Origin: a virus
Virus record (IMG/VR): IMGVR_UViG_3300030102_008656
Coordinates: 1-25,461 of that record
DNA: 25,461 bases
Strand: one strand, 5' to 3'
The notes beneath the pieces were generated by a model. The model had not been told where the DNA came from. It saw only the letters and a program-made list of their open reading frames with translations, and did not search any database. Of this stretch, positions 3,364-14,534 are shown piece after piece. Positions within the stretch are counted from its first letter, which is position 1, and each line of letters opens with the position of its first letter. A program made the position numbers and the translations under genes.

Positions 3364-4082
3364 TGAGTTAAAGCGGATATTATATACTTCAATTTAATAC
3401 CATTATCCTGAATATCAAATATAACTACCCCATACTCAGTATTAATTTTAACATTAAATTTATCATTAATAATAGATAGTAATCTAACATTATCTAAACT
3501 AATAGGTACAGGATTCAAATTAAAATCAGCAGCACCTAAACTAATAGTAAAATTATCAGTATTATGCCTAGATCTATCAGTTAACTCAGCCTTTAATAAA
3601 CCATCTTCAGTATAAAAATATAATTTATTAGTTTCAGAAGCAAAAGTACTACCTTTAAATATTTTACCTAATAAATTTTTATCTAATTCAAATTCAACAT
3701 CATACTTAAACCCATTTATTTTTTCTAAATTAATATTAGGTCTATTAATAAAACCTTCTTCATAAAGATGATATTTAAACTTTACGTCACAACCACTATA
3801 TTGAAGATTATTAGAGTTAATAGTTAACTCTACATTATTACTTTCAATAGTATCTAACACATGTCTTAATTTTTTAACGTCAGGTACGTTAATTTTATCT
3901 TCAAAAGATAACTTAGTATTATATTCGGAACAAAGTATTAAAGTACTATCTAAACTAGATACTAAACTAGACACCTTTTCATTTTCAATATCAAGAATTA
4001 CTCCTTGATCGTTTATTTTTGAAATAGCGTCTAAAAACTTTAAAAATTCACTTTTGTCGCTTAGTCTTAGTTGATTTGCCAT
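3360..4082 (-). CDS. 45: Sliding clamp, T4 gp45-like
   Basis: This 240-residue protein is close in length to T4 gp45 (228) and has the alternating beta-strand and helix composition of a trimeric clamp. Visible gp45-like stretches include the N-terminal helix SEFLKFLDAISKIN followed by a short strand, a mid-protein FELDKNLLGKIFKGS, and FTISLGAADFNLNPVPISLDN, which resembles the T4 region YTLTLGDYDG...FNFIINMANMKM. The clamp tethers gp43 to DNA and in T4 also activates late transcription through gp55 and gp33. Clamps diverge strongly, so the call relies on pattern and context. The gene overlaps the previous one by 35 bases. The clamp-loader genes 44 and 62, which follow gene 45 in T4, are not here. 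Confidence 0.78.
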   Translation of the reverse strand: MANQLRLSDKSEFLKFLDAISKINDQGVILDIENEKVSSLVSSLDSTLILCSEYNTKLSFEDKINVPDVKKLRHVLDTIESNNVELTINSNNLQYSGCDVKFKYHLYEEGFINRPNINLEKINGFKYDVEFELDKNLLGKIFKGSTFASETNKLYFYTEDGLLKAELTDRSRHNTDNFTISLGAADFNLNPVPISLDNVRLLSIINDKFNVKINTEYGVVIFDIQDNGIKLKYIISALTQ

Positions 4083-10350: not shown

Positions 10351-11573
10351 TGAGTTCCTTCGAAATCACAGATAATTTTAGTCACTTTAATGATTTATTC
10401 AACAGGTCGGAGTTTCTAACTGAAGCTAAAAGATCTCCATATGCTAAATATCATTCTTCTTTTGGTGGTGTTACTAAAGATTTAAAATCTGCAGGATTTA
10501 GTTCAGCTCCTTTAGATACTATTAATTTTATTAGAACTACACTCTATAATTTAGAGTTAATTAGCGATGATGAACTTGCTGCAGCTAAAAAAGGGTCAGG
10601 TTTTGCTGCTAAAAAAAATAATTTATTAGCTCTTTTAGATGCAAAAGAAGATGTAATAGAAAAAAATAAAGATAAAATAGCTAAAGCAGTAGAAAGTGAT
10701 CTAGCTACTTATATTAAACGTTCAGCTGTAAATAGAGGTAAAGAAGACAAATATGCTGCACAAAAAGCAGAAAATGAAACTAGAGAAGCTGCTAGAAAAT
10801 TAGCTAAAGATATTAAAGCAGGGGTAGATGTAAGTGATGCTGTTGAAGATACTGTTGATGATATTGGTCAAGCTGAAAGAGAAGCTTTAGATAGTATTAA
10901 AATGGCTAAACAAGATCCAACTACTATGGTTGAGATAAGAGTAGCAGATAGTGATAAAGTAGATGAAGTTAAATCATTAGTAGTAAAATATGCTAATGAA
11001 GATGGAGTAGATGTTTCAGGTAATACTGTTCAATTTTCAACTGATCCGGATTCTCCTCTAGCTAAAGCTGTAAAAGCTCATGGAGAAGAAAAAGTTGAAG
11101 CTGCAATTCGTAGAGATGTAGGAAAGTTTACTGATAATGCAGTAGCTGTTATGAAGCCCGAAGAAGATTATGAAGAGGGACCGGAGCCTATGGAACCAGA
11201 AGGCCCTGCTAATGAGTACGAAGAAGGTATTGACGAAGTAGAAGATGAAGATAACGAATTTGATGACTTTGATATCGGGCAACAATCAGATGAAAACGTG
11301 CCCGATGATTACGAGGAAGTTTTAGCTGCTTTAGTTGATGATGATAAGAAAAAGCACGCAATGAAGCAACTTAACGGTGAAGATGAAGAAGAAGCTATAG
11401 TAATGAAACCTATGCTCGAATCACATAAGACAGATACATCAGCATATCTTACTGAGCAATCTGCTTCTGATGAACGTAATAAAAAGACTGAAGTTAAGAA
11501 TCAGTCATTTAAAGAAAAATATAAGCCTAAAACACATTGGCAGTTAGAAGAACTTAGACGTTACGGTCTCTAA
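10350..11573 (+). CDS. Large acidic, probably virion or prohead-core protein
   Basis: The 407-residue protein is highly charged. It has an N-terminal aromatic segment to about residue 45, a helical Ala/Lys/Glu-rich middle (about 85-190), a small alpha/beta-like part (TTMVEIRVADSDKVDEVKSL), an acidic stretch (about 270-325) and the basic C-terminus SFKEKYKPKTHWQLEELRRY. I recall related C-termini in marine T4-like phage proteins but know no function. L-T-E triplets at 23-25 and 367-369 have the form of gp21 prohead-protease sites, so both ends could be trimmed in assembly. A perfect late promoter precedes it. Its stop overlaps that of queC by four bases (CTAA). Structural role is inference. 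Confidence 0.82.
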   Translation: MSSFEITDNFSHFNDLFNRSEFLTEAKRSPYAKYHSSFGGVTKDLKSAGFSSAPLDTINFIRTTLYNLELISDDELAAAKKGSGFAAKKNNLLALLDAKEDVIEKNKDKIAKAVESDLATYIKRSAVNRGKEDKYAAQKAENETREAARKLAKDIKAGVDVSDAVEDTVDDIGQAEREALDSIKMAKQDPTTMVEIRVADSDKVDEVKSLVVKYANEDGVDVSGNTVQFSTDPDSPLAKAVKAHGEEKVEAAIRRDVGKFTDNAVAVMKPEEDYEEGPEPMEPEGPANEYEEGIDEVEDEDNEFDDFDIGQQSDENVPDDYEEVLAALVDDDKKKHAMKQLNGEDEEEAIVMKPMLESHKTDTSAYLTEQSASDERNKKTEVKNQSFKEKYKPKTHWQLEELRRYGL

Positions 11574-12319
11574 GCACATATCTCACAATTATTTTCATTA
11601 TACAGCTTATTTATTTTACCTTGCTGTAAATATATTATAGGATCTTCATACCCCGCATCAATAAAGCCTTTAATTCTCATACTACTTGAAGGCGTTGTAG
11701 CATCTGCAACTCCATCTTCTCTATCTGAATAGCACGTCCAGGTATCTTTAAAAATTACTCCTAATTTAATACCTTCTAAAATAATTTCAGCTTTAGACAT
11801 AACAAGTAAAGGAGCTTCAATTTTAACTCTATTCTCTCTATTAAGTTCAGTTACTTTATTTACCGTATCTACAAACTCTTCACTACCATCCCAGTAGCCT
11901 GCTAACGAATCAACTTGAGCAGCACCATACCATACTGTATCTGCATCTACACTTTCAGCATAAGCAGAACAAATAGATAAAAACATTAAGTTTCTAAACG
12001 GTACATAAGATACAGGCTGAGCATCTCCTGCTATTTTACTAATATCAGGATTATCAATATCAGTATTAGTTAAAGAAGATGTAGGAGCTATATCTTTAAT
12101 ATAGTTTACATCTAAAACTTTATTAGTTACTTCAATATTCTTATATTTTTCTCTAAAGTTAGTAATCTGCTTGTCAACACATTTAAGTTCACGTCTATGT
12201 CTTTGACCGTAATCAAAGGTTAATGTATGTATTTCATCATACCCCCTATCTTGTGCCATATATAACAGCACAGAAGAGTCCATTCCACCGCTAAGAGTTA
12301 GTACTAGTTTCTTTTTCAT
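11570..12319 (-). CDS. queC: QueC homologue (7-cyano-7-deazaguanine synthase family) lacking zinc cysteines
   Basis: QueC turns 7-carboxy-7-deazaguanine into preQ0 using ATP and ammonia. The PP-loop ATP site SGGMDSS (10-16) is intact, as are FDYGQRH (35-41), VPFRNL (106-111), WYGAAQVD (130-137) and the end of the core TWTCYS (193-198) and MRIKGFIDAGYEDP. The zinc site is not: after Cys196 the usual C-G-x-C-x-x-C reads ADATTPSSSMR (205-215), with none of the three cysteines. A C-terminal CEIC (245-248) might replace part of it. In phages preQ0 and its derivatives are used to modify DNA guanines. The gene overlaps the uvsX end by 29 bases. Substrate may have changed. Confidence 0.88.
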   Translation of the reverse strand: MKKKLVLTLSGGMDSSVLLYMAQDRGYDEIHTLTFDYGQRHRRELKCVDKQITNFREKYKNIEVTNKVLDVNYIKDIAPTSSLTNTDIDNPDISKIAGDAQPVSYVPFRNLMFLSICSAYAESVDADTVWYGAAQVDSLAGYWDGSEEFVDTVNKVTELNRENRVKIEAPLLVMSKAEIILEGIKLGVIFKDTWTCYSDREDGVADATTPSSSMRIKGFIDAGYEDPIIYLQQGKINKLYNENNCEICA

Positions 12320-13421
12320 TAATTAAATTATCTAATTCACCTAATTCATCAGGTATTTCTTCTTCTTTGTTACTATAAGACCATTCTTGACTTATGCGAT
12401 CTTCTACTTTAGGTAAAATAGTTTCTTCCCAAAGCTTAGTATCCTTTCTCCAATTCTTATAATAACCTAACTTAGTACCATCTTCAAGCTGATAAGTAGC
12501 ACCAGTTTGAACTACTGCTCCTACACCTACAGCTAAGTCTACTAGACCGTAATATCTATCTAAACCTGAAGAAAAAGAAAGATACATTTCACCTTCTAAG
12601 TACTGCTTAATAAATCTATTTTTACGAGTAAGAGCTCTAATAATAATACCAGAATATTTCTTCTGACCTACCGCTAACTCACCATCTACAGTCTTACCTC
12701 CATCATCTTTCATAGGCTTACGAGCTAATTGCACAGTTACGGAAGGTAAATAGATGCAAGACTTACCTCCGGGCATATTCTTTTCGATAGAAGGAAAAAG
12801 AGCAGCAGGGTCATCATAAACATGATTAGTACATAAGATAGTAGTTTGAGTTACAGAGCCTAAATTAGTACAAGTCTGCATTAACGTCTTCATAGCTCGA
12901 GCTTTAGTACCCATATCTGATGAAGTACTATCTTTACTCATACGAGTTAGCTCTAACTCAGACTGTAAGTTAGCTAATGAGTCAATAGCTACGATAAACT
13001 TACCTTCAAGCCCTTTTTCTTTAACAGAAGTAAGGAACTTATATAAAGAGTTCCTAGCTTGCTCAATACTAGTACAAGGAACGTATTTTACTTTACTGAT
13101 ATCAAGACCAAGTCTTTCTGCCCCTTCGGGATCAATAGCATTTTCAGTATCAAAGATAACTGGAATAAGTCCTTCTTCTTGAGCCTTAGCTAAAATCTTT
13201 TGAACAAACAAAGACTTACCAGTCATAGACTCACCAGCAAGCATAGTTACCCTTCCTTTAGGAATACCACCATTAATAGAACCAGAAATGATAGCATTCA
13301 GTACATATGACCCAGTATCAATCCACTCACCAACATGACTTAAAGTATTGTTATCAAGGTAAGTAGCGAAAGGGTTAACTTTATCGATAGCGTCTAAAGC
13401 ACTAGTAATATCTTTATCCAT
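12291..13421 (-). CDS. uvsX: RecA-like recombinase, T4 UvsX
   Basis: This 376-residue protein forms filaments on ssDNA and carries out strand exchange in recombination-dependent replication. The RecA-type core has GGIPKGRVTMLAGES running into Walker A GESMTGKS (63-70), IFDTENAID, Walker B FIVAIDSL and the L2-like TTILCTNHVYDDPAALFPSI region followed by PGGKS. The acidic C-terminus (EEEIPDELGELDN) is as in T4 UvsX (391 residues). The ATG at 13421 has TATAAT seven bases upstream and lies just beyond the terminator at 13454-13485, so it begins a new leftward unit with queC second. The mediator UvsY is encoded at 23459-23854. Confidence 0.95.
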   Translation of the reverse strand: MDKDITSALDAIDKVNPFATYLDNNTLSHVGEWIDTGSYVLNAIISGSINGGIPKGRVTMLAGESMTGKSLFVQKILAKAQEEGLIPVIFDTENAIDPEGAERLGLDISKVKYVPCTSIEQARNSLYKFLTSVKEKGLEGKFIVAIDSLANLQSELELTRMSKDSTSSDMGTKARAMKTLMQTCTNLGSVTQTTILCTNHVYDDPAALFPSIEKNMPGGKSCIYLPSVTVQLARKPMKDDGGKTVDGELAVGQKKYSGIIIRALTRKNRFIKQYLEGEMYLSFSSGLDRYYGLVDLAVGVGAVVQTGATYQLEDGTKLGYYKNWRKDTKLWEETILPKVEDRISQEWSYSNKEEEIPDELGELDNLINEKETSTNS

Positions 13422-13428
13422 ATATAAG

Positions 13429-13434
13429 ATTATA
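13429..13434 (-). promoter_or_regulatory. TATAAT promoter for uvsX
   Basis: On the minus strand TATAAT lies seven bases before the uvsX ATG, the same distance as at the gp43 and gp55 genes. A terminator just upstream (13454-13485) supports an independent start here. Confidence 0.55.
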
Positions 13435-13453
13435 ATATACTACTAAAATTTAT

Positions 13454-13485
13454 CAATAAAAAAAGCCCCTATATATAGGGGCTTT
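13454..13485 (-). terminator. Intrinsic terminator with perfect stem
   Basis: Bases 13462-13485 form a perfect 24-base palindrome with GCCCC/GGGGC arms and a TATATATA centre. Reading leftward it is followed by an uninterrupted T-run, so it ends leftward transcripts that cover Hsp20 and the GC-rich segment before uvsX begins. Read rightward there are only three T residues after the stem, so it is mainly a minus-strand terminator. Confidence 0.88.
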
Positions 13486-13690
13486 AAAGGTGGGTGAGAG
13501 GATTGGCTGGTAACCTCCAACTTTCAGTGAGCAAGATGCAGTTTCATCTTTTTACCTACTTGTGCCCCGCTTCTTTACACTTAATAGTCAGTTGACCCTC
13601 CATGTACGTTACGGTCCCTTTAACACTCTTGCTTAAAATGTTTATTCAGGCACACCCGGGTTGGGCTAGCTAGGCCCGTATAACAATAAC
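13486..13690 (-). ncRNA. GC-rich, probably structured non-coding RNA of unknown class
   Basis: About 205 bases between Hsp20 and the terminator contain no convincing gene and reach roughly 45-50% GC, far above the surroundings. Inverted repeats are visible: AAGATG/CATCTT with a 6-base loop (13533-13550), TTGG..GG-TAA-CC..CCAA (13504-13521), GGGC/GCCC (13662-13676). A TTATAC box lies at 13679-13684 on the minus strand, directly before GGGCC, and the unit ends in the terminator at 13454-13485; both support leftward transcription. It is not a recognisable tRNA, tmRNA or known riboswitch. A tiny leftward frame (13556-13603) begins ATG and gives MEGQLTIKCKEAGHK; it could be a micropeptide. The RNA class is unknown. 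Confidence 0.45.
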
Positions 13691-13696
13691 TGGACT

Positions 13697-14107
13697 CTAA
13701 ACTGTATAAGTTTTAATATATTCTTCTTTCTTTCTACGAGGTACATCAACCTCAAGAACTCCATTAATATAAGAGAATTTAATTTTATTTAAATCAAACT
13801 CTCTTCCTACTGAGAACGACCTATTATAGGTTTGTTCTTTTTCTCCGTCGTGGGCTTTAACTTTACGCTTAGCTTTGATATAAACTTCGCGTTGATCAGT
13901 GTCTGTAGAAAGATCTAAATCATCTTTCGAGACTCCAGGTAGATCAATTTGCACGCTTAGTGCATCTTCATCCGATGAGAATCGGACTTGATCTCCTGTT
14001 TTGTATACTTCTTCCAACTGGTGAAAGACTGGCGTTAAATTAAAAAAACCGTCGAAGGCTCTTTCAATTTCTGCGATTGGATTATGTGTGTATTTAGTTA
14101 GTTTCAT
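13697..14107 (-). CDS. hsp20: Small heat-shock protein Hsp20 (alpha-crystallin)
   Basis: The 136-residue protein is a chaperone that holds unfolding proteins. An N-terminal arm (1-45) leads into the alpha-crystallin domain: VQIDLPGVSKDDLDLS, REVYIKAKRK, YNRSFSVGREFDLNKIKFSYINGVLEVDVPR (the GVL motif is typical), ending IKTYTV. Hsp20 genes are a known hallmark of marine T4-like phages. A perfect TATAAATA lies eight bases upstream of the ATG, so it is expected late and may help virion assembly. This is the only gene in the leftward replication blocks with an exact late consensus. Confidence 0.95.
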   Translation of the reverse strand: MKLTKYTHNPIAEIERAFDGFFNLTPVFHQLEEVYKTGDQVRFSSDEDALSVQIDLPGVSKDDLDLSTDTDQREVYIKAKRKVKAHDGEKEQTYNRSFSVGREFDLNKIKFSYINGVLEVDVPRRKKEEYIKTYTV

Positions 14108-14115
14108 AGTAAAAA

Positions 14116-14123
14116 TATTTATA
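14116..14123 (-). promoter_or_regulatory. T4-type late promoter for Hsp20 (perfect TATAAATA)
   Basis: On the minus strand an exact TATAAATA ends eight bases before the Hsp20 ATG at 14107. Confidence 0.75.
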
Positions 14124-14141
14124 CATAAACCTTGCTATATG

Positions 14142-14534
14142 TTAAACTGTAGCTGGTTCTTTTTCTTCTTCTTTTTTCTCTTCGTCATCAAAGAGTTGAA
14201 TTACTTCAGGTTCGCTAGCCTCTTGCTGAATAGGAGGATTTGGATTATTAATATTGTCGTACTGAGTAGTAATACGTTCATCTAGTTCAACGTTTGATAC
14301 GCTAATTGCACTCTTATCAAAAACCCAATCGTTCTTTTCTTTGTCTTTTAAAAATTCCATAAAGATATAAGGAAATGATTGAACTTGAAGTTGCCCTGTA
14401 CTTTGATCAGGTTGTACATGAATAATAACTGGGTTAGTTAAAGTAAGAGTTTTAGCATCTTCAGCTTTAATAACACCAATTACAGTTCTACCAATATGAT
14501 CAATGATAGTTTTAATTGATTTTTTATCTGCCAT
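14142..14534 (-). CDS. Hypothetical protein with possible Sm-like fold
   Basis: The 130-residue product has a beta-rich N-terminal half: IGRTVIGVIKAEDAKTLTL, NPVIIHVQ and SFPYIFMEFL, in a spacing that recalls an LSm/Hfq-like barrel, then a linker and a strongly acidic C-terminus (FDDEEKKEEEKEP). The Sm resemblance is an impression from pattern and not secure. I recall similar proteins in T4-like marine phages without a function. It lies between Hsp20 and another small gene, with 34 bases to Hsp20. The stretch 14535-14574 before it holds only T-runs. Confidence 0.72.
   Translation of the reverse strand: MADKKSIKTIIDHIGRTVIGVIKAEDAKTLTLTNPVIIHVQPDQSTGQLQVQSFPYIFMEFLKDKEKNDWVFDKSAISVSNVELDERITTQYDNINNPNPPIQQEASEPEVIQLFDDEEKKEEEKEPATV

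Follow-up and report, generated by a model that had tools for sequence, protein, structure and literature searches.

A divergent manA-class RNA between hsp20 and uvsX in a lineage of T4-like phages

The window, a stretch of 25,461 nucleotides of viral DNA (IMG/VR record IMGVR_UViG_3300030102_008656), contains a structured RNA in the gap between its hsp20 and uvsX genes. This RNA is read leftward. It does not form a family of its own but a divergent branch of manA, which is already described; the variant form and its genomic context are what is new here. We give about an even chance to the reading that this manA-class RNA, as the predicted 3' end of the late hsp20 mRNA, most likely acts in trans and is not a 5'-UTR switch for uvsX.

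The manA RNA, named after the metabolic genes that it supposedly controlled, became a riboswitch candidate in 2010 and has remained an orphan. Weinberg et al. 2010 (PMC2864571) placed it in potential 5' UTRs and classed it as cis-regulatory, a candidate riboswitch, and later papers repeat this reading (PMC9964418, PMC7657543, PMC12197685). The family is also part of the Rfam 14 update (PMC7779021). The features of the locus in the window are listed in Table 1.

Table 1. Features of the hsp20-uvsX locus, in the order of the predicted leftward transcription.
Feature	Position	Strand	Basis
T4-type late promoter TATAAATA, before hsp20	14116-14123	-	read in sequence
hsp20, small heat-shock protein gene, upstream gene of the predicted transcript	13697-14107	-	Pfam PF00011, E 9.6e-14
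manA-related structured RNA, full length	13487-13677	-	cmscan RF01745
RNA 5' hairpin GGGC..GCCC	13663-13677	-	alignment of copies and consensus fold
Closing helix, 5' arm GGGUG	13653-13657	-	covariation with 3' arm across classes
3' hairpin GGAGG-loop-CCUCU	13497-13518	-	covariation across classes
Closing helix, 3' arm CACCC	13492-13496	-	consensus fold and covariation
Intrinsic terminator, 10-bp stem 13485-13462 then T tract	13455-13485	-	sequence feature
Sigma-70 promoter of uvsX, TTGATA-16-TATAAT, past the terminator	13429-13456	-	11/12 matches
uvsX/RecA-like recombinase gene, downstream, predicted to lie outside the RNA's transcript	12291-13421	-	Pfam RecA, E 8.6e-19

Relationship to manA

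In cmscan (E-value mode) the minus strand from 13677 to 13487 aligns with the whole of the RF01745 (manA) model, positions 1-192, at 36.8 bits (E 4.6e-8; E 6.6e-10 when scored within the record). This score falls below the curated gathering cut-off of 55.2 bits, so that routine annotation overlooks the RNA, and at Rfam gathering thresholds the window has no matches. The RNA is therefore named a divergent relative of manA rather than a curated member. It shares with manA the full-length alignment, the 5' hairpin, the closing helix, the GAAUAA-helix-UAA core, the CUG-loop hairpin, the 3' hairpin with its conserved loop, and presence in a T4-like phage. Unlike manA it lacks the inner multi-hairpin junction that carries the GUGGUG and ACCA loops: cmscan skips the corresponding model positions in all variants shown, and in the consensus fold one long stem takes the place of the junction. 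The lineage has lost this three-hairpin part of manA. By eye, the CUG loop and the loop of the 3' hairpin are complementary in the window RNA (CUG:CAG), which is not kept in L166, and the canonical copies have CUGU:ACAG, AUGU:ACAU and CUUU:GAAG at these loops. A pseudoknot between the two loops could correspond to the 'pseudoknot?' in Weinberg et al.

A tRNA and tmRNA search found none, and DNA similarity to cultured phages is limited to the terminator region. The wcaG and glutamine (glnA) cis-regulatory RNAs occur beside manA in T4-like cyanophages (PMC9964418); these are Rfam families separate from manA, and neither matches the window at Rfam gathering thresholds.

Conservation and compensatory changes

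Twenty distinct copies of the RNA were collected, and those of the main type were compared in 171 pairs. Mean identity is 93.8% for the RNA, 86.9% for hsp20 DNA, 68.7% for the third positions of hsp20 and 63.1% for its fourfold sites, and the RNA exceeds the fourfold sites in 170 of the 171 pairs. This points to purifying selection on the RNA. A short peptide within it (ATG GAG GGT CAA ...) was considered and rejected, being broken among the relatives by indels and non-synonymous changes.

The copies align well, with a consensus fold of 5' hairpin, closing helix and inner stems. The closing helix is GGGAG/CUCCC in canonical manA, GGGUG/CACCC in the window type, GUGAG/CUCAC in L166 and AUAUA/UGUAU or UAUAU in the third class described below. 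Across classes, canonical manA included, 99.2% of the cells in the arms of the closing helix and the 3' hairpin are paired, with 13 distinct arm combinations and double changes at 8 of the 10 pairs. Arm-shuffled controls, which like the other shuffles used here keep composition and not phylogeny, reach 73.4 +/- 3.7%, with 0 of 1000 attaining 99.2%. For the canonical rows, whose arms were found by looking for segments that pair, the test leans towards pairing; sequence motifs served to place the rows of the variants and of the third class.

The folding energy is unexceptional (z -0.65 on the minus strand and -0.68 on the plus strand), and stability alone is therefore no proof of structure. The several hairpins reported in an earlier note on this DNA are significant by homology and covariation, not by folding energy. 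That note had proposed a covariance search with homologous regions of related phages and a check of conservation, and both came out in favour of the RNA: the search gives the RF01745 match, with stems that keep their pairing through compensatory double changes, and the RNA is far better conserved than the fourfold sites of its neighbour. The sub-threshold score and the folding z-scores would fit an unrelated local structure or decayed remnant that resembles manA by chance. This is very improbable, being contradicted by the purifying selection and the covariation, by the E-value within the record and by the 20 further relatives that score 39-49 bits.

Position in the predicted transcript

The gap between hsp20 and uvsX is about 275 bases long and has no ORF of at least 50 amino acids, and the GC content of the RNA is 47% against roughly 30% across the window. 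The earlier note was thus right to mark nearly these coordinates as a feature with no standard gene, raised GC and a strong leftward terminator, the last confirmed as a sequence feature. Of its 'candidate new phage ncRNA', the phage ncRNA, read leftward and ended by a terminator, stands; the novelty does not, the RNA being a divergent manA. Its two suggestions as to how the RNA is made also fared differently. Separate synthesis from a TTATAC box does not hold up, as the box is unconserved in relatives and matches a promoter at 8/12, like shuffled sequence; the window-lineage variants as a whole have promoter scores before the RNA like those of shuffles, mostly 8/12. The alternative, in which the late hsp20 mRNA carries the RNA as its 3' part, is apparently correct, with a late promoter before hsp20, none conserved before the RNA and the terminator behind it.

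The ATAAATA-type box of the late promoter is about 10 nt 5' of the hsp20 ATG and is kept in nearly all of the hsp20 relatives listed. In each of the 20 distinct copies 7-24 nt separate the hsp20 stop codon from the start of the RNA, and a terminator lies within about 12 nt behind the RNA; the stem sequence of the terminator varies from copy to copy. Of 40 distinct relatives, 36 have an exact TATAAT 5-7 nt before the uvsX ATG, where shuffles give 1.7. The late promoter before hsp20, the order of RNA and terminator, and the separate promoter of uvsX together indicate that the RNA is the 3' end of the hsp20 mRNA and is outside the uvsX leader. At 13456-13421 in the window the uvsX TATAAT is only 7 nt 5' of the ATG, and it is kept across the clade (36/40); this implies that the uvsX mRNA has no leader or almost none.

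The 5'-UTR location on which the cis-regulatory class of manA is based is not what is found here, since the RNA is in the 3' UTR in 20/20 distinct copies. An attenuator or riboswitch, in which a ligand bound to the manA-like fold sets terminator read-through into uvsX or an extra gene, would agree with the published class (Rfam; Weinberg et al. 2010, PMC2864571) and with the terminator adjoining the RNA. It is nevertheless improbable. The promoter of uvsX lies past the terminator in 36 of the 40 relatives, the downstream gene varies, and the terminator is also present in relatives without the RNA. No conserved antiterminator pairing that would couple an expression platform to the aptamer was found by inspection of the 20 distinct copies; the sole candidate pairing seen, GGGGC with GCCCC, is missing in L065, L086 and L158. 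Attenuation of uvsX itself is unlikely.

Occurrence in related phages

The RNA is found in about 40 related viral contigs. Among the window and the relatives that share its uvsX, it scores below threshold in 21 of 47 records (36-49 bits, none over the cut-off). A pattern scan for the window type matched 35 contigs, 2 of these by chance, as the remainder of the RNA is missing there; a second, L166-like type was found in 4 contigs by pattern scan. A third class occurs in the same neighbourhood in 5 contigs of more distant phages, whose uvsX is about 65% identical to that of the window clade, and scores 35-41 bits in the 3 contigs scored. Where the upstream side is available (3 contigs), the gene preceding the third-class RNA is a homologue of the window gene at 14142-14534, with no hsp20 between; gene context here and elsewhere is based on a simple longest-ORF rule.

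Many close relatives have hsp20 and its terminator but no RNA, and the manA-like match is absent throughout one 171-kb related record. The RNA is therefore dispensable, a module that is gained and lost. In bacterial genomes a strict core pattern gave, among the matches listed and read out, only cores without the rest of the RNA. The UvsX and DNA polymerase of the lineage are about 30-33% identical to those of the nearest cultured phages, which are mostly cyanophages.

Regulation of hsp20 through its 3' UTR, as by an element that responds to temperature or stress, would account for hsp20 adjoining all 20 distinct window-type and L166-type copies. The third-class relatives, however, have the RNA at the locus without hsp20, other relatives carry hsp20 without the RNA, and canonical copies follow gp23, pstS, pebS, regA or ferredoxin. 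Such a role is decidedly improbable.

Canonical manA in cyanophages

Canonical copies were collected with the exact 14-base core, which biases the sample to the core family, and the figures that follow are among the matches listed. Of the records with this core, 42/50 exceed the RF01745 cut-off, at up to 195 bits. In the flanks from cultured cyanophages, TTGACA-N16/17-TATAAT stands directly before manA. Among 95 distinct metagenomic flanks, 91 have a sigma-70 score of at least 10/12 before manA (2.3 in shuffles) and 86 a score of at least 11/12 (0.1 in shuffles). A terminator-like hairpin is found within 110 nt behind manA in 23/82 cases (1.7 in shuffles), and a tRNA follows at 6 loci. A literature search yielded no usable transcription-start data on cyanophage manA.

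The gene upstream differs between phages. It is gp23 or a capsid gene in P-HM1, P-RSM4, S-SSM5 and MED4-213, a capsid/vertex gene in metaG-MbCM1, pstS in P-SSM4, P-SSM3 and P-RSM3, regA in P-SSM2, ferredoxin in P-SSM7 and a putative NAD synthetase in P-TIM68. In P-HM2 manA lies between the phycoerythrobilin gene pebS and gp32, and in P-RSM6 it precedes the transaldolase gene. Many cyanophage copies are directly before a start codon (gp32, talC). Because canonical manA has its own promoter, an early reading of it, too, as a 3' UTR (of gp23 or pstS) was abandoned.

Several further arrangements were seen at these loci. At 35 of the 95 the -35 box is inside or beside the intrinsic terminator hairpin of the upstream gene (e.g. 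L016, L041 and L061), giving a fused terminator-promoter, GAGGGTTGACACCCTC-TTTTTTT-ATGCTATAAT. At L028, L097, L007, L042, L061 and L103 a tRNA (Gly-TCC or Asn-GTT) starts about 20 nt or less after manA, in two cases almost immediately. In L020 (about 3490-3530) and 16 further canonical loci manA is followed, at about 7-30 nt, by a conserved hairpin, AGACCTAAGATGCAACTC-loop-GAGTCGGGCAGATGGTCT, which in many cases has a run of T; this hairpin has no matches in Rfam and may be a second RNA or a terminator of a special kind.

Proposed function

In the window a single late monocistronic transcript would run from the late promoter through hsp20 and the RNA to the terminator, and the RNA could then be cut from the hsp20 mRNA by processing. 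It would most likely work as a molecule in its own right, in trans, and not by switching the downstream gene from a 5' UTR; that the RNA is transcribed, processed and active in trans is predicted from sequence. The window RNA has no promoter of its own and precedes a terminator in a 3' UTR, whereas canonical manA is at the 5' end of its transcript. Given this free position, first in cyanophages and a 3' tail here, the RNA most simply acts itself, and the two uses seem to fit a self-acting molecule better than the published 5'-UTR riboswitch idea. Extended to the family, the proposal is that manA is a phage-encoded, stand-alone trans-acting RNA, with its own sigma-70 promoter in cyanophages or as a processed late-mRNA tail in the window lineage; this is held tentatively, with a little less than even confidence.

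Counted for action in trans are the family match, the conservation and covariation, the positions of hsp20, terminator and uvsX promoter, the persistence of the RNA without hsp20, the promoter-proximal cyanophage copies and the varied neighbours. Counted against it are the dispensability of the RNA and the cyanophage copies before the start codons of gp32 and talC, an arrangement that a 5'-UTR role would account for as well.

The main rival is a stability element of the 3' UTR, in which the fold and the terminator block 3' decay, giving more Hsp20, and act in cis on any preceding gene. In the window lineage the RNA is always right behind a co-oriented gene and right before a terminator, and the upstream gene may change while the RNA stays, as such an element would allow. 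Close relatives, however, end hsp20 with the terminator alone, a barrier would not require a fold of 190 nt with conserved loops, and canonical manA is the first and not the last part of its transcript. A stability role is therefore considered unlikely. In its location at the 3' side of a gene the window RNA resembles CfrI of cyanophage S-PM2 (reviewed in PMC12197685); CfrI is antisense to psbA.

With a lineage in which the RNA is walled off by a terminator, and with the 5' promoter in cyanophages, cultured cyanophages offer a direct test of whether manA is a cis switch or an independent RNA. A further consequence is that the Rfam cut-off misses whole branches of manA.

Other elements

Directly downstream of uvsX, at 11570-12319, the window has a QueC-like (7-cyano-7-deazaguanine synthase) gene, named from its translation by eye, which is a hint of deazaguanine DNA modification. 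A manA-like match of 19.9 bits is present on the minus strand of L048, a 195-kb phage record, near tRNA genes. Its core, GGGTGTGACTGAATAA, has a motif resembling the 3' hairpin a short distance behind it, and the interior looks largely absent. Another conserved element occurs 3' of hsp20 in the distant relatives L417, L419-L426, L428 and L429, where an ATAAATA-like box is followed by GGTCGGAGCATAACTA..AACAGGGGATGGATGGTGGGCA; this has four G tracts and could form a two-tier G-quadruplex.
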